Assembly (NCBI GenBank): GCA_913776045.1
Contig: CAJYOI010000028.1
Location: 1-51,428, forward strand
Source of the DNA: an uncultured Sphingomonas sp.
GTDB lineage: Bacteria; Pseudomonadota; Alphaproteobacteria; Sphingomonadales; Sphingomonadaceae
Length of the DNA stretch: 51,428 nucleotides
Reading direction: 5' to 3'
In this document: one piece after another, positions 10,895-34,132 of the stretch
Layout of the letters: every line of letters starts with the position of its first letter
Position numbering within the stretch: the first letter of the stretch is position 1
The notes under the pieces: generated by a model
What the model saw: only the letters and a program-made list of their open reading frames with translations
What the model was told of the DNA's origin: nothing
Database searches by the model: none
Made by a program: the position numbers and the translations under genes

Positions 10895-12397
10895 ATGATG
10901 CGTGATATCGACCATGTGATCGCCGGGACCGGCGGTGCCAGAGCCAGCCGCTTCAGTGACGTCTTCGAGCCGAACAGTGGTCAGGTGCAGGCGCGCGTCG
11001 GCTTGGGCAGCGCAGCGGACCTGGAACGCGCGATCGAGGCGGCAAAGGCTGCGCAACCGGCGTGGGCGGCGACCAATCCGCAACGCCGCGCGCGCGTGCT
11101 CTTCAAGTTCAAGGAACTGGTCGAGGCGAACATGGACGCGCTCGCCCACACGCTGTCGAGCGAGCACGGCAAGGTCATCGCCGATGCCAAAGGCGATATC
11201 CAGCGCGGGCTGGAGGTCATCGAATTCGCCTGTGGCATCCCGCACGCGCTGAAGGGCGAATATACGCAGGGCGCGGGGCCGGGGATCGACGTCTATTCGA
11301 TGCGGATGCCGGTCGGCATCGGTGCCGGTATCACGCCGTTCAACTTTCCGGCGATGATTCCGATGTGGATGTTCGGCGTCGCCATCGCCTGCGGCAACGC
11401 CTTCATCCTGAAGCCGAGCGAGCGCGACCCTTCGGTGCCGGTGCGCCTCGCCGAACTGATGCGCGAGGCCGGGTTGCCCGAGGGCATCCTGCAAGTCGTC
11501 CACGGCGACAAGGAGATGGTCGACGCGATCCTCGACCATCCGGCGATTTCCGCCGTCAGCTTCGTCGGCTCCAGCGACATCGCGCAGTACGTCTACAGCC
11601 GCGGCGTCGCTTCCGGAAAGCGCGTGCAGGCGATGGGCGGGGCCAAGAACCACGGCATCGTCATGCCCGACGCCGATCTGGACCAGGTCGTTGCCGACCT
11701 GTCGGGCGCGGCGTTCGGATCGGCGGGTGAGCGCTGCATGGCACTTCCGGTCGTCGTGCCGGTGGGCGAGAAGACTGCCGACAACCTGCGCGAGAAGCTG
11801 ATCCCGGCGATCGACGCGCTGCGGGTCGGCGTGTCGACCGATGCCGAGGCCCATTACGGCCCGGTCGTGAACGCCGCGCACAAGCAGCGGGTCGAAAACT
11901 GGATCCAGATCGGCGTCGACGAGGGCGCCGAACTGGTCGTCGACGGCCGCGGCTTCTCGCTGCAGGGGCATGAGCAGGGCTTCTTCATCGGACCCAGCCT
12001 GTTCGATCGCGTAACGCCGCAGATGCAGAGCTACAAGGAAGAGATTTTCGGCCCGGTCCTCCAGATCGTCCGTGCGCCCGATTTCGAAACCGCGGTGCGC
12101 CTGCCGAGCGAGCATCAGTACGGCAACGGCGTCGCGATCTTCACCCGCAACGGCCACGCCGCCCGCGAATTCGCCGCGCGCGTGGAGGTTGGAATGGTTG
12201 GCATCAACGTGCCCATCCCGGTACCGGTCGCCTACCACAGCTTCGGCGGCTGGAAGCGCAGCGCGTTCGGTGACGTCAACCAGCACGGCATGGAAGGCGT
12301 GCGCTTCTGGACGAAGGTGAAAACGGTGACGCAGCGCTGGCCTGATGGCGGGGTGGGAGAGGGCGGCAACGCCTTCGTCATCCCGACAATGGAATGA
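10895..12397 (+). CDS. mmsA: CoA-acylating methylmalonate-semialdehyde dehydrogenase
   Basis: This 500-residue NAD-dependent enzyme converts methylmalonate semialdehyde to propionyl-CoA, the last step of valine breakdown and the link to the upstream pcc operon. Visible motifs are PVGIGAGITPFNFPAMIP, the NAD-site region SFVGSSDIAQYVY, the catalytic Cys281 in GSAGERCMAL and the C-terminal GWKRSAFGDVNQHG. Two adjacent ATG codons (10895 and 10898) could start it; GGAGAG precedes them. It heads a plus-strand operon running to 20000, and the 104 bases between it and the divergent chemoreceptor gene must hold its promoter. Confidence 0.95.
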   Translation: MMRDIDHVIAGTGGARASRFSDVFEPNSGQVQARVGLGSAADLERAIEAAKAAQPAWAATNPQRRARVLFKFKELVEANMDALAHTLSSEHGKVIADAKGDIQRGLEVIEFACGIPHALKGEYTQGAGPGIDVYSMRMPVGIGAGITPFNFPAMIPMWMFGVAIACGNAFILKPSERDPSVPVRLAELMREAGLPEGILQVVHGDKEMVDAILDHPAISAVSFVGSSDIAQYVYSRGVASGKRVQAMGGAKNHGIVMPDADLDQVVADLSGAAFGSAGERCMALPVVVPVGEKTADNLREKLIPAIDALRVGVSTDAEAHYGPVVNAAHKQRVENWIQIGVDEGAELVVDGRGFSLQGHEQGFFIGPSLFDRVTPQMQSYKEEIFGPVLQIVRAPDFETAVRLPSEHQYGNGVAIFTRNGHAAREFAARVEVGMVGINVPIPVPVAYHSFGGWKRSAFGDVNQHGMEGVRFWTKVKTVTQRWPDGGVGEGGNAFVIPTME

Positions 12398-24129: not shown

Positions 24130-26415
24130 ATGGCGGGGAAGAAATCGACATCGCGCGCGGGCGGTTATTGGGGTCCGGCGGGGGGCTGGGGATCGATGCG
24201 ATCGGTTGCCGAGATCCTGAAGCGCGAGAGGGTCGGGCCCGAAGGCATCCGCGAACTGACCCGGCTCAACAAGCCGAAGGGAGTCGCCTGTGCCAGCTGT
24301 GCCTGGCCAAAGCCCGCCGACCACCACGCCGCCGAATTCTGCGAGGAAGGGGCAAAGGCGACCGCGTGGGAGCTGACGTCGCTGCGCACCACGCCCGAAT
24401 TCTTCCAGAAGCATACGCTGACCCAGCTGCGCGGCTGGTCCGATTACGACCTGGAGCAGCAGGGGCGTCTGACGCATCCCCTGCGCTATGACGCTGCGAC
24501 CGACAAATATGTCGCGTGCGACTGGGGCGAGGCGTTCGATGCGATCGGCGGAGCGCTGAAGGCGCTCGATCCCAAATCGGTTGTCTTCTACGCCTCGGGC
24601 CGCGCGAGTCTGGAGACGTCGTACATGTGGGCGCTGATGGCGCGGATGTACGGCAACCAGAATCTGCCCGACAGTTCGAACATGTGCCACGAGTCCACCT
24701 CCGTCGGGCTGAAGGCCGCGATCGGCGTGCCGGTGGGGACGACGCGGCTCGAAGATTTCGAGCATTGCGACGCGATCTTCTTCTTCGGCCAGAACGTCGG
24801 GTCGAATAGCCCCCGCATGCTGCACGACCTGCGATCGGCGCGGCACCGCGGGTGCGAGATCGTCGTGTTCAATCCGCTGAAAGAGCGCGGGCTGGAGCGG
24901 TTTACCGATCCGCAGAACCCGGTCGAGATGGCGACGCTGACCGAAACGCGGATGGCGACGCAATACCATCAGGTGCGCGCGGGTGGTGACATTGCGGCTA
25001 TGACCGGACTCGCCAAGTTCCTGGTCGAATGGGACGATGCGGCAAAGGCCGCCGGCGATCCAGCCGTGCTGGACCATGAATTCATCGAACAGCACACGCA
25101 CGACTTCGCCGCCTTTGCCGACCATGTCCGCGCGGCGGATTGGCACGCGATCGAGGCGGAGAGCGGCCTGACCCGCGAGGCGCTGGAACAGGCCGCCCGC
25201 GTCTATGCCCGGTCGAAGGCGGTGCTCGGCATCTACGGCATGGGCCTGACCCAGCATGTGAAGGGCGTCGACAACGTACGGATGATCGTCAACCTGCTGC
25301 TGCTGCGCGGCAACATCGGGCGGCCGGGCGCGGGGCCGACGCCGGTGCGCGGGCATTCGAACGTGCAGGGCCAGCGGACGGTCGGCATCACCGAAAAGAC
25401 CGAACTTGCGCCGGTCGAGAAGCTGAAGGAGCTCTACGGCTTCGATCCGCCGACCGAGAAGGGGCTCGACACGGTCGAGGCCTGCCGCGGCGTCATCGAC
25501 GGCAGCGTGAAGGCGGTGATCGGGCTGGGCGGCAATTTCCTGCGCGCGGTGCCGGAGACGGGGCTGATGGAGGAGAATTGGCCGAAGCTCGACGTGTCGG
25601 TGCAAATCGCGACCAAGCTGAACCGCAACCATCTGTTTGCAGGACGGGTCACTTACCTGCTGCCGTGCCTGGGACGGATCGAGGAGGATGTGCAGGCGTC
25701 GGGACCGCAGGCGGTTACGGTCGAGGATTCGACCAGCTGTATTCATGGGTCGCGCGGCAAGGCGAAACCCGCCAGTCCGCACCTGTTGTCCGAAGCCGCG
25801 ATCGTAGCTGCGCTCGCCAAGCGGATCTGCCCGCCTAACGACCGCGTCGACTGGGACGCCTGGGTCGCCGACTATGGCCGCGTGCGCGACGCGATCGAGG
25901 CGACGTACCCGGACAAGTTCGCCAACTTCAACCAGCGCCTGTTCGAACCCGGCGGCTTCTGGAAGGGCAACACGGCGTCCGAACGCATCTGGGAGACAAA
26001 GAGCGGCAAGGCCGAATTCTTGGTACCGGCGGAGCTATCGGCGACGGGCTTTGCCGACAGGGATGGGCGCTATCGCCTGATGACGCTGCGGTCGAACGAC
26101 CAATTCAACACGACGATCTACGGCTATTACGACCGCTTCCGTGGCGTAAATGGAACGCGCGACGTGCTGTTCATGAACAGCGAGGACATCGCCGCGGAAG
26201 GCCTGCACGAGGGCCAAGTCGTGACGTTGATGAGTGACGCCGACGACAACCATGTGCGTCGCCGCGAGGGGCTGGTGGTGACGCCGTACAGCATCCCGCG
26301 CGGGTGCCTGGGGGCCTATTACCCAGAGTGCAACGTGCTGATGCCGGTGGAGCATCATGCGGAGGAAAGCCACGTCCCGGCGGCGAAGTCGGTGCCGGTG
26401 CGGTTCGCGAAATGA
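24130..26415 (+). CDS. FdhF/YdeP family molybdopterin oxidoreductase
   Basis: This 761-residue protein resembles YdeP, a formate-dehydrogenase-alpha-like molybdoenzyme. The N-terminal cluster-type cysteines are Cys54, Cys57 and Cys71 (CASCAWPK and EFCEEGAKA). The molybdenum-domain signature is LPDSSNMCHESTSVGLK with a cysteine at the expected ligand place. Later motifs are GMGLTQHVKGVDNVRMIVNL, LRGNIGRPGAG and the C-terminal molybdopterin-binding barrel (MTLRSNDQFNTTIYGYYDRF). No twin-arginine signal is seen, so it is cytoplasmic. The electron partner and substrate are unknown. An FdhD-type sulphur-transfer gene is not in the window. Confidence 0.92.
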   Translation: MAGKKSTSRAGGYWGPAGGWGSMRSVAEILKRERVGPEGIRELTRLNKPKGVACASCAWPKPADHHAAEFCEEGAKATAWELTSLRTTPEFFQKHTLTQLRGWSDYDLEQQGRLTHPLRYDAATDKYVACDWGEAFDAIGGALKALDPKSVVFYASGRASLETSYMWALMARMYGNQNLPDSSNMCHESTSVGLKAAIGVPVGTTRLEDFEHCDAIFFFGQNVGSNSPRMLHDLRSARHRGCEIVVFNPLKERGLERFTDPQNPVEMATLTETRMATQYHQVRAGGDIAAMTGLAKFLVEWDDAAKAAGDPAVLDHEFIEQHTHDFAAFADHVRAADWHAIEAESGLTREALEQAARVYARSKAVLGIYGMGLTQHVKGVDNVRMIVNLLLLRGNIGRPGAGPTPVRGHSNVQGQRTVGITEKTELAPVEKLKELYGFDPPTEKGLDTVEACRGVIDGSVKAVIGLGGNFLRAVPETGLMEENWPKLDVSVQIATKLNRNHLFAGRVTYLLPCLGRIEEDVQASGPQAVTVEDSTSCIHGSRGKAKPASPHLLSEAAIVAALAKRICPPNDRVDWDAWVADYGRVRDAIEATYPDKFANFNQRLFEPGGFWKGNTASERIWETKSGKAEFLVPAELSATGFADRDGRYRLMTLRSNDQFNTTIYGYYDRFRGVNGTRDVLFMNSEDIAAEGLHEGQVVTLMSDADDNHVRRREGLVVTPYSIPRGCLGAYYPECNVLMPVEHHAEESHVPAAKSVPVRFAK

Positions 26416-28102: not shown

Positions 28103-29419
28103 TCAGGCCCGCACCGCCCGCATCGCCGCGGGCCACAAGAGCACTAGCGCCGCCACCGACGCCGCCAGCGTCGCCAGCGCTGCGCCCAGCGCCTCGAACC
28201 GCGGCACCAGCACCATAGCGGCCAGCGCCAGCACGCCGACCGCGGCCAGCCGGATACGGAAGGCGCTCCCCGCGCGGCCGGTGCCGATCAGCATCGGTTC
28301 GAACCCGATACCCATCACGTCGATTGCGACCGCCAGGCTGAGCACCAGCACCAGCGGCCAGGCGGCGGTATAGGCCTTGCCGCCGACCAGATGCAGCGCA
28401 GGTTCGCCCAGGATCGGCACGGCGAGGCAGATGACCGCCCCCACCGCCAGCGTCAGCCGGGTCGACTGACGGAACAGCCGCCGCAGGTCCTCGCGGGAGG
28501 TCGCCCGGTCCGCGCGCGAAAACTCCGGAAAGATGCCGCGCGAGAACATTTCGGCGATCTGCGCCAGCGCCTGGCTTAGCTGGAAGGCGAGGCGATAGGC
28601 CCCCGCTGCCGCCGGCCCAGTCACGAGTCCGACGACCACGACCACGCCCTGGCGCCCGGCCGCATTCAGCGTCGCCGATACGTTGGTAAGCGCGGCGAAA
28701 CGCATCAGCCCTGGATGTTCGCGCCACACGCCCACGCTGCCCCGCCACCCGCGCATCAGCCCCGGCGCGACGCGCCACACCGCGCGCCAATGGACGATCG
28801 CCGTCAGGATCTCGGCAGCACCCCAGGCGATCAGGAAGCCACGCACATTCGGCCCCGTCGCCACCACGATCGCGGCGCCGATGAAGCGCATGACGGGCGT
28901 CGTCGATTCCGCCGCCGCGCCGATGCCATAGCGATCGTAGAGCCGCAGGACACCGATCGCACTCGACCGGATCGATACCATTAGCACGATGCAGAACACG
29001 ATCGCGTCGCGCGTCATCGCGTCGTCCCAGCCGAACCGCGCATCGAGCGCCCACAGGACTATGGTGACCACGACGCACCCGGCAACCGCGGCCACGGAAT
29101 CGAGCATCGCGCAGAACCGCACCAGCCGGCCCAGTGCCGCGGTGTCCTCCGCGACCTGTAAAGGCACGCCGTAGCGCACCACGACCTGCCACGACTGGAA
29201 CAGCATCATGGCCGCGACCGCCTGGCCGATCGACAGGATCAGCATGAACTGCCCGAAGCCCTCCGGCCCGAGCGTCCGCGTAGCGAGGCCGAGGTAAACG
29301 AGGCTCAGCACCGCGCCCAATCCCTTGCCGGTCAGCAACCAGCCGACATTGCGCAACGCCCGCCGGAAGGGGCTTGCGATCTTTTCTTCCCCGCCCAAGG
29401 TCTTAGATATCGCGAGCAA
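28103..29419 (-). CDS. Oligosaccharide/lipid flippase-like membrane protein (Wzx/MATE type)
   Basis: This 438-residue protein has about 12 to 14 hydrophobic segments and the typical N-terminus of the polysaccharide-transport group (ALRNVGWLLTGKGLGAVLSL, TRTLGPEGFGQFMLILSIGQ). Such proteins flip lipid-linked glycans or polar lipids across the inner membrane. The apparent start at 29419 is TTG; an in-frame TTG slightly downstream is possible. It is divergent, 46 bases away, from a CDP-glycerol-transferase-like gene and next to a lipid kinase group, so the cargo may be a modified lipid. Confidence 0.8.
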   Translation of the reverse strand: MLAISKTLGGEEKIASPFRRALRNVGWLLTGKGLGAVLSLVYLGLATRTLGPEGFGQFMLILSIGQAVAAMMLFQSWQVVVRYGVPLQVAEDTAALGRLVRFCAMLDSVAAVAGCVVVTIVLWALDARFGWDDAMTRDAIVFCIVLMVSIRSSAIGVLRLYDRYGIGAAAESTTPVMRFIGAAIVVATGPNVRGFLIAWGAAEILTAIVHWRAVWRVAPGLMRGWRGSVGVWREHPGLMRFAALTNVSATLNAAGRQGVVVVVGLVTGPAAAGAYRLAFQLSQALAQIAEMFSRGIFPEFSRADRATSREDLRRLFRQSTRLTLAVGAVICLAVPILGEPALHLVGGKAYTAAWPLVLVLSLAVAIDVMGIGFEPMLIGTGRAGSAFRIRLAAVGVLALAAMVLVPRFEALGAALATLAASVAALVLLWPAAMRAVRA

Positions 29420-29465
29420 TGCGCATGACCCGCCCCCTATCGCGTCCTCCGCGGGCGCGCCACCA

Positions 29466-30608
29466 GTGAAGATCGGCTTTCTCTATAACCACGACGCCCT
29501 GCATCAGGTCAGTCATACCGCACCGGTCATCGCTGCGCTGGCGCGGGATCGGCGAGCCGAAGTGACCGTCCTGACGTCCAGCGACGCTCAGGCCACGCGG
29601 GTGCGCGAACTGATCGGCGGGCAGGCGGCCGCGACGGTTCGTTTCGTCGCGCTGGATATCGGGCCGCTTTCGCGCCTGCTCGACGCCGGCCTGCGCTGGA
29701 TCGCACCGTTCCGCCGCGTCGCGGTGCTGCGCGAAAATCTCCCTGAATTCGCCCGCCTCGACGCGCTCGTCGTGCCCGAGACGACCAGCCTGATGTTGCG
29801 CGACCGCTTTGGTCTGACCGACCTGAAGTACGTCTGGATACCGCACGGTGCCGGTGACCGCTCGGTCGGATTTCGCAGCGTGATGAAGGGGTTCGATCTC
29901 GTCCTTCTGTCGGGGACGAAGGTCCGCGACCGGATGCTGGCGATGGGCCTCGTCAAGCCCGACAACCACGCGATCGTCGGCTATCCGAAGTTCGAGACGG
30001 TCGACCTGACGCGGCGCCCACGGCTGTTCGGCGACGATCGTCTGACTATCCTGTACAACCCGCATTTCGATCCGCTGCTAAGCAGCTGGTATCCCTGGGG
30101 CGAGGCGGTCGTCGATGCGATCGTGGCGCGCGGCGACGTCAATCTGGCAGTCGCGCCGCACGTCATGCTGTTTCAGCGTCGCATCCACGCCTCGGTCGAG
30201 CATCGCCGCCTGCACTGGCGTCGTGACCTGCCGCCGCGGTGGCAACGGCGGCCTGGGCTGATCGTCGATCCGGGCAGCCCGCGATCGATCGACATGAGCT
30301 ACACGCTGGGCGCCGACATCTACATCGGCGATGCGTCGAGCCAGATCTACGAATGGATTGCACGGCCCCGCCCGGCGATCTTCCTCAATCCGCGCAGCAT
30401 CGGCTGGCGCGACGACCCTAGCTTTGCGCATTGGCATCTGGGGGAGGTTGTCGACGATCTCGCCGACCTCGGCCCGGCGATCGACCGCGCGCTCGTCGAT
30501 CCGTATCGCTTCGATGCCGTACAGCGCGACGCCTTTGCTCGAACCTTCGATCGCAGTGCGCGTCCGGCCGCCGAACGCGCGGCCGAGGCCATCCTGTCGC
30601 TGGCTTGA
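29466..30608 (+). CDS. CDP-glycerol glycerophosphotransferase-like / GT-B transferase
   Basis: This 380-residue protein begins VKIGFLYNHDALHQVSHTAP at a GTG; no in-frame ATG is close by. It looks like a GT-B fold: an N-terminal Rossmann half, then LTDLKYVWIPHGAGDRSVGF with the PHG(A/T) motif common in TagB/TagF-type transferases, NPHFDPLLSSWYPWGE at the start of the second half, and GADIYIGDASSQIYEWIARP, matching the donor-site DxSS region of that family. It would transfer a glycerol-phosphate-like or sugar group. The acceptor is unknown, but a lipid is suggested by the next gene. There are no membrane helices. Confidence 0.72.
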   Translation: MKIGFLYNHDALHQVSHTAPVIAALARDRRAEVTVLTSSDAQATRVRELIGGQAAATVRFVALDIGPLSRLLDAGLRWIAPFRRVAVLRENLPEFARLDALVVPETTSLMLRDRFGLTDLKYVWIPHGAGDRSVGFRSVMKGFDLVLLSGTKVRDRMLAMGLVKPDNHAIVGYPKFETVDLTRRPRLFGDDRLTILYNPHFDPLLSSWYPWGEAVVDAIVARGDVNLAVAPHVMLFQRRIHASVEHRRLHWRRDLPPRWQRRPGLIVDPGSPRSIDMSYTLGADIYIGDASSQIYEWIARPRPAIFLNPRSIGWRDDPSFAHWHLGEVVDDLADLGPAIDRALVDPYRFDAVQRDAFARTFDRSARPAAERAAEAILSLA

Positions 30609-30708
30609 ACTACGTCGGGCCGATCGCGCCGCAAACGTAATAAATTTGTCACTCAAGGGAACCAACCCCTTGTGAAGCGTTAGTAGGCTAACCAATTGCC
30701 GGCGCGCT

Positions 30709-31758
30709 GTGAAAAATTCGATTTACGATAGCCTCGCATTGCCGCGACTTGCGTTCACATCTTTAGATGTGGCGCCGCCGCGTGCTGAACCCGCCCGCAC
30801 CTATCGTCGTGGCGCGACGCCGGGGCTGGTCGGGCTGATCCGCAACCCGCGTAGCCGCCGTAATATCGGTGCCGCAAACGCTCTGGTCTATCGCCACAAC
30901 GTCATCGTCGAAGCCCCCGAAACCCGCGAAGCGCTGCGCGATGCGCTGGAGGTGTTTGCTGCGCGCGGCATCGATCTGCTGGTGATTGACGGCGGCGACG
31001 GGACGATTCGCGACGTGCTGACGTGCGCGGGCGACAGCTTCCGCGACCAGTGGCCCGACATCGCCATCCTGCCGACCGGTAAGACCAATGCCCTGGCGAT
31101 CGACCTGGACCTGCCCGCCGATTGGACGCTCGACGAAGCGATGGAAGCGGCGGTGCGCGGGCGGACGATCGCGCGCAGTCCGGTCGAGATCGTCGACCGC
31201 GCCGTTGCACGGCCGCGGGTACGCGGATTCCTGTTCGGCGCGGGCGGCTTCGTCGATGCGACGCAGCTTGCGCAGCACACGCACAAGGCGGGCGCGTTCA
31301 ACGGCTTGGCGGTCGGGCTGGCGCTGGCCGGGGCAATCGGATCGACGCTGTTCGGCCGCGCCGACAACCGCTGGCGCCGCGGCAGCCGGATAGCGCTCCG
31401 CTATTCGGCCGATGCGCGCCCTATGCACGGCGCCCAGACGACCAGTGATATGGCGCGCTACATGATGCTCGCCTCGACGCTGGAGCGCCTGCCGGTAGGG
31501 CTGAAGCCATTCGGCCGAATGCGGCCGGGGCTGAAAAGCCTGGTCGTCGATGCGCCACCGCGCGGACTGGCGAGCAGCGTGCCGTTCCTGCTGGCGGGGC
31601 ATGAGGGCGCCTGGCTGGAGGCGCGGGGCTATCACCGGATCGATGCGAGCGCGTTTGACGTCGATCTCGACGCCGGCTTCATCCTCGACGGGGAGATCTT
31701 TCCCGGCGGACAGTATCGCGTGTCGCAGGGCCTGCCGCTGCGCTTCGTCGTCCCGTGA
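30709..31758 (+). CDS. Diacylglycerol/ceramide kinase-like lipid kinase
   Basis: This 349-residue protein has the lipid-kinase nucleotide motif IDGGDGTIRDVL (Gly95-Thr99) and LPTGKTNALAIDLDLP, where the family usually has GTxND/NALA. The C-terminal half is the beta-sandwich of the DAGK/sphingosine-kinase superfamily (GFLFGAGGFVDATQL). It starts at GTG 30709 after an AT-rich 100-base gap that probably holds a promoter. A bacterial ceramide kinase, CpgB of Caulobacter, belongs to the same superfamily, and sphingomonads make ceramides, so ceramide is a plausible substrate; diacylglycerol is the alternative. It overlaps the next gene by ATGA-type coupling. Confidence 0.82.
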   Translation: MKNSIYDSLALPRLAFTSLDVAPPRAEPARTYRRGATPGLVGLIRNPRSRRNIGAANALVYRHNVIVEAPETREALRDALEVFAARGIDLLVIDGGDGTIRDVLTCAGDSFRDQWPDIAILPTGKTNALAIDLDLPADWTLDEAMEAAVRGRTIARSPVEIVDRAVARPRVRGFLFGAGGFVDATQLAQHTHKAGAFNGLAVGLALAGAIGSTLFGRADNRWRRGSRIALRYSADARPMHGAQTTSDMARYMMLASTLERLPVGLKPFGRMRPGLKSLVVDAPPRGLASSVPFLLAGHEGAWLEARGYHRIDASAFDVDLDAGFILDGEIFPGGQYRVSQGLPLRFVVP

Positions 31759-32630
31759 ATGCGGCACTGGCCGCGCTGGTCGCGGCGTCGCTCGACCGGC
31801 CGGTAGCCGCACCGGTGCGGGCATTCGCGGCGGAGCTTGCGCAGGGGGCGGGCGCGCTGGCGGTGCTGTTCTATGGATCGAACCTGCGCACCGGGTCGCT
31901 GGAAGGTGTGCTCGATTTCTATGTGCTCACCGACGGCCCGCCCGAGCGAGGTCTATGGCCGCGGGTCGGCTATCAAGAATCGAACGGCCTGCGCGCCAAG
32001 ATCGCGACAATGACGCTCGCGATGTTCGAGAAAGCCTGCGACGATCGCACGATTGATACGACGATCTGGACGCGCTTCGTTCAGCCTGCCGCGCTGGCGT
32101 GGGCGGCGGCGGGCGCCCGGGCACGGGTCGAGGCGACGATTGCGGCTGCCGCGATTACCGCGGGGCGGTATGCCGCGGCGTTGGGGCCGCGGGCGGGGGA
32201 GGCGAGTGACTATTGGTGCGCCCTGTTCCGCGCGACCTATGCCGCAGAATTGCGTGTCGAGGCGAAGGGGCGGGAGGAACAGATTCTGGAGGTCCACGGC
32301 GATCACCTGAACGCACTGCTCCCGGCGGCGTGGGGTGCGGGGAACGTGGTTTTCCGGGTTGCCGCACCAGATCGATTTCAAGTCGAGCTGCCCCCCGAAG
32401 GGCGTGCTCGCGTCCTTACCCGCTGGAAACGCCGTCAGCGGCTGGGGCGCCCGCTCAACATCGTCCGCCTGGTCCGCGCAGCCTTCACCTTCGATGGCGC
32501 CGCCCGCTACGCCGCTTGGAAGATCGAGCGGCACACCGGCGTGTCCGTCCCGATTACGCCGTTCCGCGAACGCCATCCGGTGCTGGCCGCGCCGGGCGTG
32601 TTGTGGCGCGTGTGGCGGGCGCGGGCGTGA
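31755..32630 (+). CDS. Unknown protein with Tam41-like nucleotidyltransferase signature
   Basis: This 291-residue protein is not firmly recognised. Residues 37-58 read VLFYGSNLRTGSLEGVLDFY with a Gly-Ser pair (41-42) and Asp54 twelve residues later, the spacing of nucleotidyltransferase-fold enzymes; YGS followed by (I/L)DF resembles mitochondrial CDP-DAG synthase Tam41. Other conserved-looking pieces are WTRFVQPAALAW, SDYWCALFRATYAAELRVEA and LNIVRLVRAAFTFDGAARYA. No membrane segment is seen. It sits between the lipid kinase and a MobA-like nucleotidyltransferase with four-base overlaps, so activation of a phosphorylated lipid with CTP is a reasonable guess. Confidence 0.7.
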   Translation: MNAALAALVAASLDRPVAAPVRAFAAELAQGAGALAVLFYGSNLRTGSLEGVLDFYVLTDGPPERGLWPRVGYQESNGLRAKIATMTLAMFEKACDDRTIDTTIWTRFVQPAALAWAAAGARARVEATIAAAAITAGRYAAALGPRAGEASDYWCALFRATYAAELRVEAKGREEQILEVHGDHLNALLPAAWGAGNVVFRVAAPDRFQVELPPEGRARVLTRWKRRQRLGRPLNIVRLVRAAFTFDGAARYAAWKIERHTGVSVPITPFRERHPVLAAPGVLWRVWRARA

Positions 32631-33382
32631 GCTTCTCCGCCGTCATCCTCGCCGGGTCGCGGGGCGGCGCAGTCGATGCGGTCGCCGAGGCCGAAGGGGT
32701 GTCGCACAAGGCGCTGATCTCGGTCGACGGACGAACGATGCTGGAGCGGGTCGCGGACGCGGTTCGCGCGGCGGGGGCTCAGACGGTGGCGGTGTCGGCC
32801 AACGATCCCGCGGTCATCGCTGTGGCCCAGGCGCTGAGCCTACGCGTGCTGCCGCCCGCTGCCGGACCGAGCGACAGCGTGGCGACAGCGGTCGCCGGTC
32901 TCGGCACGCCGCTGCTGGTCACGACGGCGGACCATGCGTTGCTGGAGCCCGAATGGATCACCAGTTTCTTGCACGACGTGCCGGCCGGAGCCGATATCGC
33001 CGTTCTGCTCGCCGAACGGGCGCGGATCGAGGCGGCGATGCGCGACACGCGGCGGACCTATCTGCGCTTTGCCGATGGCGCGTGGTCGGGCTGCAACCTG
33101 TTCTACCTCGCGACGTCTGACGCCGCGCGCGCGATCGGGCTGTGGCGCGCGGTGGAGGCGGATCGCAAGCGGCCGTGGCGGATCGTCCGGCGGTTCGGGG
33201 TCGGGACGTTGCTGCGCTACCTGACGGGACGGCTGACGCTGGCGGATGCGGTCGCCCGGCTCGGGCGGACGGCCGATGTGCGCGCGGCGGCGGTCGCGGC
33301 GCGCGATGGCCTAGCCGCGGTGGATGTCGACAAGCTGTCCGACCTGGCCGACGTCCGCGCGATCATCGCCAATCGACGATAG
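32627..33382 (+). CDS. MobA-like NTP transferase domain protein
   Basis: This 251-residue protein starts at GTG 32627 (VSFSAVILAG) and has the nucleotidyltransferase signature LAGSRGG...SHKALISVDGRTML at residues about 8-36, then VTTADHALLEPEWI with the metal-binding Asp region. It probably attaches a nucleotide to a small phosphorylated head group. The C-terminal third (about residue 170 on) is basic and helical, with KRPWRIVRRFGVGTLLRYL, typical of the subgroup found near lipid genes. It overlaps the preceding gene, and its 3' end overlaps the convergent phosphatase gene by 20 bases. Confidence 0.82.
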   Translation: MSFSAVILAGSRGGAVDAVAEAEGVSHKALISVDGRTMLERVADAVRAAGAQTVAVSANDPAVIAVAQALSLRVLPPAAGPSDSVATAVAGLGTPLLVTTADHALLEPEWITSFLHDVPAGADIAVLLAERARIEAAMRDTRRTYLRFADGAWSGCNLFYLATSDAARAIGLWRAVEADRKRPWRIVRRFGVGTLLRYLTGRLTLADAVARLGRTADVRAAAVAARDGLAAVDVDKLSDLADVRAIIANRR

Positions 33383-34028
33383 GCCAGCCACGTTCTCCAG
33401 CCATAGTGCGGAGTCGGGCGTGCGGGTTCACCGCAATGGCCTCGTTGGCCCAAGCGAAGGTCGGTTCGTCGGTCGCATGGTCCGAATAGAAGCGGACGTA
33501 CGCATCGGCTCGGGCAAGCCCCTCGCGCGCCATCCATGCCTCGATCATCGCCAGCTTGTCGGCGCCGTAGCAATTGGCCCCGGCGATGCGGTGGGTGACG
33601 CGGCCTTTGGCATCGACCTCGGCTTCGGTCGCGATGACGTCGTCGATGCCGAGCGCCGCGGCTATGCGGGCTGCGTAGAAGCGATGAGCGGCGGAGGCGA
33701 CGACGATGCGATACCCCGCCGCGCGGTCGGCGGCGATCTGCGCGCGCGCGCCGGGGCGGACGTGTCGGGCGAAGCGGTCGGCGAAGGATTGCGCGACTGC
33801 GGCGGACTGGTCGGGTGCCAGCGTGCCGACCATCAGGCGGTGCATCAGCTGCTTAAGCGTCCGCCGCTCGATCAGTCCTGCGCGATAGGTCAGCATCGCG
33901 CCGACGACCACCGGCGCGAACGCCAGCCGCCACGGCGCGCGGGTCCGGGCTGCGTGGAGCACGAACGGCGTCCATGTCGGCACCGCAGTGATCGTGCGGT
34001 CGAGGTCGTAGATGGCGAGGCGATGCAT
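33363..34028 (-). CDS. HAD-IB family phosphatase
   Basis: This 221-residue protein has the HAD nucleophile motif YDLDRT (Asp8, Asp10, Thr12), motif II IVVASAAHRF, a lysine in GADKLAMIEAW and the acidic motif YSDHATDEP. The SerB-like IB cap is indicated by the helical region 35-95. It removes phosphate from a small or lipid phosphate ester. ATG 34028 is chosen; GTG 34046 would add six residues. It is convergent with the NTP transferase gene but likely part of the same functional group. Confidence 0.87.
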   Translation of the reverse strand: MHRLAIYDLDRTITAVPTWTPFVLHAARTRAPWRLAFAPVVVGAMLTYRAGLIERRTLKQLMHRLMVGTLAPDQSAAVAQSFADRFARHVRPGARAQIAADRAAGYRIVVASAAHRFYAARIAAALGIDDVIATEAEVDAKGRVTHRIAGANCYGADKLAMIEAWMAREGLARADAYVRFYSDHATDEPTFAWANEAIAVNPHARLRTMAGERGWPIVDWR

Positions 34029-34038
34029 AACCAACCCC

Positions 34039-34132
34039 GTTCGCACCGAGCACGTCGAAGTGCTGTCCTTCTTTGTGCCGCGAGAATGGCGCCAAAGAAG
34101 AAGGGCAGGGCTTCGACGGGCTCAGCCCGAAC
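34039..34132. repeat. Long dispersed palindrome (GTCGAAG family)
   Basis: GTTCGCACCGAGCACGTCGA followed by GTGCTGTCCTTCTTT pairs with AAAGAAGAAGGGCAGGGCTT followed by CGACGGGCTCAGCCCGAAC across a short loop. It is related to 31-130, 40567-40635 and 46447-46544. It separates the phosphatase and amidohydrolase genes. Confidence 0.8.

Follow-up and report, generated by a model that had tools for sequence, protein, structure and literature searches.

A Sphingomonas locus combining a candidate ceramide phosphoglycerate pathway with a distant TagF-like transferase and a flippase

We examined a 51,428-nucleotide stretch of DNA from an uncultured Sphingomonas sp. (GenBank assembly GCA_913776045.1, contig CAJYOI010000028.1), hereafter the window, and in it a group of six genes that probably builds and exports a sphingolipid head group. 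The window forms contig C28 in a draft genome of 3.15 Mb with a completeness of 99.86%. On the reverse strand, positions 28103..29419 encode a Wzx-type flippase (PF01943/PF13440; 37.2 bits for PF01943 against a cut-off of 28.2). Divergently oriented from it is the gene for a 380-aa GT-B transferase with a GTG start (29466..30608, forward strand), a putative distant relative of TagF/TarL (PF04464) by its predicted fold and by homologs that pass the PF04464 cut-off; its motifs are HGAGD at residue 127, APHV at 230 and DASSQ at 289, with histidines that we take to be TagF-like. Following 100 bases between the transferase stop and the kinase start, three further forward-strand genes encode a CpgB-type lipid (probably ceramide) kinase with a DAGK_cat domain (30709..31758; 48.7 bits against 23.6; GGDGT at residue 95), a CpgC-type protein with the predicted fold of the Tam41 cytidine diphosphate (CDP)-diacylglycerol synthase (31755..32630; GTG start; assigned through Foldseek, with YGS at residue 40 and LDFY at residue 53) and a MobA/CofC-like nucleotidyltransferase of the CC_1153 type (32627..33382; GTG start; PF12804, 62.1 bits against 27). 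A convergent reverse-strand gene (33363..34046) encodes a HAD-IB phosphatase (109.4 bits against 27; TIGR01490 103.7 against 98.3). The original prediction, made from the letters of this DNA, had placed these six families within about 6 kb, and all are present at the positions it gave; it also counted three coupled starts, of which we find two, both 4-base GTGA overlaps (kinase/Tam41-like, 31755-31758; Tam41-like/MobA, 32627-32630). The MobA-like and HAD genes converge, with their 3' ends overlapping by 20 bases.

The locus is conserved among relatives, which are designated below by locus (L), genome (G) or contig (C) numbers. In Sphingomonas sp. Leaf33, the closest named relative at the locus, all six genes keep their order at 79-92% identity. 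In 79 of 80 named loci, the scan having retained the best 80 of 187 relatives, the Tam41-like gene is immediately preceded by the kinase gene, and in the lone exception (L053) the contig begins 112 bases before the Tam41-like gene, so this adjacency is not a product of chance. Gene calls were crude (based on GC content at third codon positions, GC3), with start codons outside the window approximate.

In a tree of 42 kinases, the window kinase groups with those of ceramide clusters: a 100/100 branch separates 33 ceramide-cluster or sphingomonad-locus kinases from 9 YegS/DAGK-family kinases, among the latter being E. coli YegS and another diacylglycerol (DAG) kinase, the second one in the window genome. 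The ceramide-cluster kinases stand in for Caulobacter CpgB, which is itself not included, and the cluster label takes in L151 and L159, whose views show no spt. Like the YegS/DgkB lipid kinases, the window kinase has a DAGK_cat domain and a GGDGT motif, but it scores far under the NCBIfam cut-offs of YegS/DgkB-type families and falls outside the clade of the nine tested. On the branch and the scores together we reject an ordinary DAG/YegS kinase, and the grouping with DgkB/YegS that the original prediction had named as a finding against itself was not seen. In one genome (G018; loci L016 and L132) the kinase gene occurs in two overlapping pieces, possibly through a frame break or a sequencing error.

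Co-occurrence with ceramide synthesis genes, which the original prediction had also looked for, is pronounced. Of 289 alphaproteobacterial genomes, 38 have a CpgC-family match (E<=1e-10) and 45 have a CerS match (E<=1e-30), with CerS in all 38 CpgC-family genomes versus 7 of the 251 others; these class surveys scored a few first-look candidates per genome, with misses possible, and their rows are related by descent, so that Fisher values overstate the association. Gene neighborhoods agree with this picture. In nine loci from other families of the order (L116-L124), the kinase-Tam41-like pair is always beside spt and acp, with cerR and aas in view in seven, lptF and lptG in eight, cerS in seven, a fatty acid hydroxylase in four and a MobA-like gene in one, and in a tenth genome (L115) no spt lies within the 11.8-kb view. 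In the wider class, the kinase-CpgC pair appears with spt at L140, L141, L150, L153-L155, L157 and L158, whereas no spt accompanies it in the stretches viewed at L151, L152 and L159; at L150, cpgA-cpgB-cpgC faces spt in the same order as the Caulobacter CC_1159-CC_1162 numbering. A named metagenome contig (L098) bridges both types of locus: its Tam41-like protein, 55% identical to that of the window, is encoded beside spt, acp, cerR and aas, and its kinase is matched in part only. In the window genome itself, a 10-kb stretch of contig C67 carries cerS, lptG, lptF, spt, acp and cerR. In Caulobacter, a cpgB knockout is reported to lose ceramide-1-phosphate (PMC10331486; this and the other papers cited are represented here by extracts). 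The assignment to ceramide is well supported because of the kinase grouping, the co-occurrence with CerS and the position of relatives inside ceramide clusters: where the original prediction spoke of a (sphingo)lipid, ceramide is very probably the substrate, and we are confident that the locus serves a ceramide-1-phosphate head-group pathway.

The Tam41-like protein matches no Pfam family. Its AlphaFold2 model (49 sequences; predicted local distance difference test score, pLDDT, 92.5) gave five best Foldseek matches that are all Tam41 (E 2.7e-7 to 8.7e-6, with 6ig4 at 2.7e-7; template modeling (TM) scores 0.50-0.59, with 7ecd at 0.56/0.59), followed by aminoglycoside nucleotidyltransferases; a PDB profile search with the CpgC family returned six unrelated weak matches, with no Tam41 among them. 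Tam41 CDP-DAG synthases (6IG2, 6IG4, 7ECD) share the YGS...D layout with the window protein, but identity is 11-13% in the five matches and, unlike Tam41, the window family occurs only in CerS-positive genomes in the class survey. Extracts of papers from 2025 and 2026 state that CpgC turns ceramide-1-phosphate into ceramide phosphoglycerate (CPG) by a mechanism described there as unidentified (PMC12275187, PMC13228409). Most simply, the modeled fold suggests that the CpgC-type protein acts as a CTP:ceramide-1-phosphate cytidylyltransferase. Given the Tam41 fold, a CDP-ceramide intermediate can be proposed directly and put to the test; this agrees with the 2024 suggestion of nucleotide diphosphate (NDP)-activated ceramide, which drew on the InterPro domain of CpgC (PMC11324152).

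The transferase sets this locus apart. Its AlphaFold2 model (11 sequences, pLDDT 87.9) has a GT-B fold, as do the TagF/TarL enzymes, and the CDP-glycerol:poly(glycerophosphate) glycerophosphotransferase family PF04464 is matched under the cut-off by 10 of the 11 alignment members (best E 0.0038). Two further homologs score above the PF04464 cut-off (22.1): L174, which shares 45% identity with the window transferase, reaches 29.2 bits, and L190, which shares 44%, reaches 23.7 bits. L190, on a Sphingobium plasmid, was annotated by its depositors as a glycerophosphotransferase, and a teichoic acid transporter is encoded two genes further along. A genome survey for PF04464 itself gave a match in 1 of 115 genomes at E<=1e-20 and was uninformative. 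Extracts of the CpgD paper liken CPG2 synthesis to TagD/TagF (PMC12275187). On these sequence comparisons the transferase appears to be a divergent, distant TagF/TarL relative, though one whose acceptor, unlike theirs, is thought to be a phosphosphingolipid.

In the window genome, the enzymes that would be expected to complete a Caulobacter-like head group were not found: there is no match to a CpgA-type CDP-alcohol phosphotransferase at E<=1e-10 and no convincing CpgD (CTP:phosphoglycerate cytidylyltransferase). The CpgD search gave three matches at E<=0.01, the best of which, on contig C23, is partial (positions 3-111 of 243, E 6.3e-17) and lies in a protein that reads as MurU-like from its sequence, and was rejected as CpgD; the other two were not examined further. 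The TagF-like protein is therefore the best candidate for extending the head group in this genome, with the MobA-like protein a candidate for the donor-making enzyme. Of the 65 named loci spanning 19 kb or more, 28 encode CpgA and 8 encode the transferase; among these 8, 6 show neither CpgA nor CpgD in view and 2 show both. Loci of the Sphingomonas type take mainly two forms: the window, L034, L104, L106 and L127 have transferase, flippase and HAD genes with no CpgA or CpgD in view, and L125, L126, L128, L129, L131 and L132 have CpgD, a more divergent transferase and CpgA. A further locus of this type, L130, has none of CpgD, transferase and CpgA.

In addition to its PF12804 match, the MobA-like protein matches CofC weakly and is 35% identical to a protein encoded next to cerS in L117. 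A relative of the HAD protein is encoded at 8 of 12 Sphingomonas-type loci (the window, L034, L104, L106, L127, L128, L129 and L131) and was not found at L125, L126, L130 or L132 in the stretches viewed; in other families, L146 has a relative flanked by CpgD and CpgA, and L179 has one next to the transferase. According to extracts of PMC11324152, the phosphoesterase CC_1158 is absent from S. wittichii, and the HAD protein may fill the role proposed for it.

Occurrence of the transferase depends on the presence of kinase and CpgC. Within the genus, it was found in 9 of 10 kinase-positive versus 0 of 15 kinase-negative genomes, all 25 of them CerS-positive (Fisher 4.9e-6, uncorrected for descent); the kinase-positive genome without it is G006, and G012, with a kinase match of E 3.1e-6 and a genome 85% complete, was counted as kinase-negative. 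Among 41 relatives, all 14 transferase genomes are kinase-positive, and in the class survey 10 of the 11 genomes with a strong transferase match have CpgC, a count from which the weak partial matches of G251 (E 1.4e-14), G261 (6.8e-22) and G325 (3.7e-9), none of them CerS-positive, were dropped.

Coupling of the flippase to the transferase is seen in many, but not all, loci, the two genes adjoining each other in other genomes and on plasmids, though not everywhere; flippases were searched with two query proteins at E 1e-5, and others may be missed. At L140 and L141, flippase and transferase genes directly precede aas-cerR-acp-spt, in series, near CpgA, kinase and CpgC genes. At L142, two transferase copies, one of them 52% identical, and a flippase lie in the same 20 kb as kinase, CpgC, MobA-like, lptFG and cerS genes and an spt-like gene only 34% identical to the reference. 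In L115 (4151-6613, reverse strand), a single 820-aa open frame combines transferase and flippase next to MobA-like, CpgB and CpgC genes, in a draft assembly where an error removing a stop is possible.

Taken together, we consider it likely that the locus is the sphingomonad version of the CPG pathway, with a TagF-like extension step and flipping of the product; we infer which substrates are used, in what sequence the steps run and what the MobA-like and HAD proteins do. Ceramide would be made elsewhere in the genome (by spt, acp, cerR and cerS on C67) and phosphorylated by the window kinase to ceramide-1-phosphate. The Tam41-fold CpgC counterpart would activate this phosphate with CTP, most simply to CDP-ceramide, allowing a first head group such as glycerate to be attached. 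The MobA-like enzyme would make a nucleotide-activated donor, and the TagF-like transferase would extend the head group from a CDP-activated, phosphate-linked unit, the job of CpgA and CpgD in Caulobacter; candidates for the added unit are glycerate phosphate, glycerol phosphate or a sugar. The HAD enzyme would take phosphate off a precursor or intermediate, and the flippase would move the finished lipid across the inner membrane.

Several observations weigh against this proposal, most of them concerning the transferase. The window transferase has no Pfam or NCBIfam match of its own, and a PDB sequence search with it, itself uninformative, ranked two unrelated matches ahead of TarL at E 0.6. 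Foldseek matches to its model are led by uridine diphosphate (UDP)-N-acetylglucosamine 2-epimerases (1f6d, E 6.2e-11) and PglA, with no TagF/TarL among the 50 matches listed of 1599. PF04464 matches over the cut-off span the C-terminal part only, weak hits to NCBIfam TarL (3 of 11 members, best E 0.086) are no better than those to an unrelated flagellar model (3 of 11, 0.014), and an hhalign comparison of the family with one TagF-like protein was not significant (probability 0.14%). Six Sphingomonas-type and two Novosphingobium loci hold the transferase together with CpgA and CpgD, and therefore replacement of those enzymes is not general; 28 of the 65 longer named loci show no MobA-like gene in the stretch viewed. 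Genome G115 has a transferase homolog (L145 9584-10789, reverse strand) and no detected CpgC or CerS, and among CerS-positive genomes of the class the association of transferase with CpgC is not significant (p 0.15). One alternative shares the ceramide-1-phosphate pathway and flippase export and reads the GT-B protein as an ordinary glycosyltransferase, moving sugar from an NDP-sugar onto CPG. The closest folds to this protein are those of UDP-sugar enzymes (WecB-type epimerases and PglA), PF13439 (Glyco_transf_4) gives the best single weak Pfam E of the family, 0.00065 (3 of 11 members), two glycosyltransferase genes adjoin transferase and flippase at L190, and L175 has a GT4-type gene and a gene with a GINT1_N domain in the vicinity. 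This alternative is nevertheless the less likely one, given the weak PF04464 matches in 10 of 11 members, the two homologs over its cut-off and the six named transferase loci where, with neither CpgA nor CpgD in view, the transferase stands in their place. For the narrower question of whether the enzyme moves a CDP-activated phospho-unit rather than a sugar, we regard the two outcomes as evenly balanced.

Other readings depart further from the proposed CPG-type pathway. That the genes act on DAG, through a DAG kinase, a Tam41-type CDP-DAG synthase and a head-group transferase working on a phosphatidate-based lipid, would fit the DAGK_cat and Tam41 folds, which are those of DAG enzymes, and the in vitro phosphorylation of DAG by Caulobacter CpgB (PMC10331486); this is improbable in view of the complete nesting of the CpgC family in CerS-positive genomes (38 of 38), the location of kinase-CpgC pairs in ceramide clusters and the placement of the window kinase outside the DAGK/YegS clade. 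It is very improbable that the neighborhood is a loose one, in which a flippase and transferase from a capsule or O-antigen system came by chance to lie beside a kinase-CpgC-MobA operon. The two genes do diverge from each other, transferase copies occur away from the kinase locus in G008, G018, G024, G027, G033, G038, G039, G086, G232, G252, G270 and G304, and among the 14 loci where the transferase is remote from the kinase (L143-L149, L173-L179) only 4 (L173, L175, L176 and L177) have a flippase match, a low fraction that also counts against the pathway we propose. The restriction of the transferase to kinase-positive genomes among the 41 relatives, its serial arrangement with the flippase and aas-cerR-acp-spt at L140 and L141, and the fused transferase-flippase next to MobA-like, CpgB and CpgC genes at L115 all speak for a functional link. 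We also regard as unlikely a bolder version of the pathway, in which the TagF-like enzyme joins phosphate-linked units into a chain on ceramide phosphate for export by the flippase, giving a sphingolipid-anchored, teichoic-acid-like polymer in a Gram-negative bacterium; were it true, loci with two transferase copies (L104, L106, L127, L142 and plasmid pDC07) would encode a primase as well as a polymerase.

Set against the Caulobacter crescentus CPG pathway (CpgA-D and CC_1153; region CC_1168-CC_1152), the window has counterparts of CpgB, CpgC and the CofC/MobA-like protein as well as a flippase, and its genome has ceramide genes. It differs in that the genome lacks a CpgA match and a convincing CpgD, the locus includes the TagF-like transferase and the HAD phosphatase, and the ceramide genes lie on another contig; window genes are equated with CC numbers on the basis of gene order, family membership and the papers. 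The pathway has already been inferred for sphingomonads, with genes scattered over the genome (PMC11324152). Having two nucleotidyltransferases had been thought to go beyond the cpg set, a novelty that we reject, as the published set already has three candidates in CpgC (CC_1161, with a CDP-DAG-synthase InterPro domain), CC_1153 and CC_1152/CpgD (PMC11324152, PMC12275187). The TagF-like enzyme, accompanied by an HAD phosphatase in a genome with no CpgA match and no convincing CpgD, does exceed that set. What is new here is the TagF-like transferase beside a lipid exporter, the pathway itself being known; in the open-access literature searched, we found no report of a TagF-like transferase in the CPG pathway. 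It adds a candidate enzyme to that pathway, and it predicts that Sphingomonas species with the transferase have a phosphosphingolipid head group unlike that of Caulobacter, in which anionic sphingolipids support survival without lipopolysaccharide and are the presumed target of polymyxin (PMC12275187, PMC11324152).

Related cassettes are also plasmid-borne. On the 24-kb, conjugative-typed plasmid pDC07 of Rhizorhabdus wittichii DC-6 (CP021188.1; L189 6501-10206), a flippase and two tandem TagF-like transferases, all annotated as hypothetical, are a mobile version of the flippase-transferase cassette. Much of a cpg-type phosphosphingolipid set (CerS, MobA-like, CpgA, CpgC, CpgD, lptFG and kinase) is carried by IncP-typed plasmids of a beta- and a gammaproteobacterium, Diaphorobacter JS3051 pDCB2 (L191) and Pseudomonas JS425 pPNP1 (L193), the CerS match of the latter being interrupted by an IS5 transposase gene. 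Beside transferase and flippase, L175 encodes at 10909-11829 a GINT1_N domain (PF24793, 130 bits), the N-terminal domain of glucosamine inositolphosphorylceramide transferase; genes with similar starts are present in L173 (8558-9484) and L176 (11176-12102), with the L175 copy the only one scanned for domains.

Among neighboring genes, one for a small DUF2141 protein (at L043 11767-12516, for instance) is found close to kinase and CpgC in 77 of the 80 named loci and has no match in the window, L034, L104 or L106. Elsewhere in the window, positions 24130-26415 of the forward strand encode an oxidoreductase with 58% identity over 601 aa to an annotated FdhF/YdeP protein, a relative that is itself encoded near a kinase-CpgC pair on a Qipengyuania citrea plasmid.

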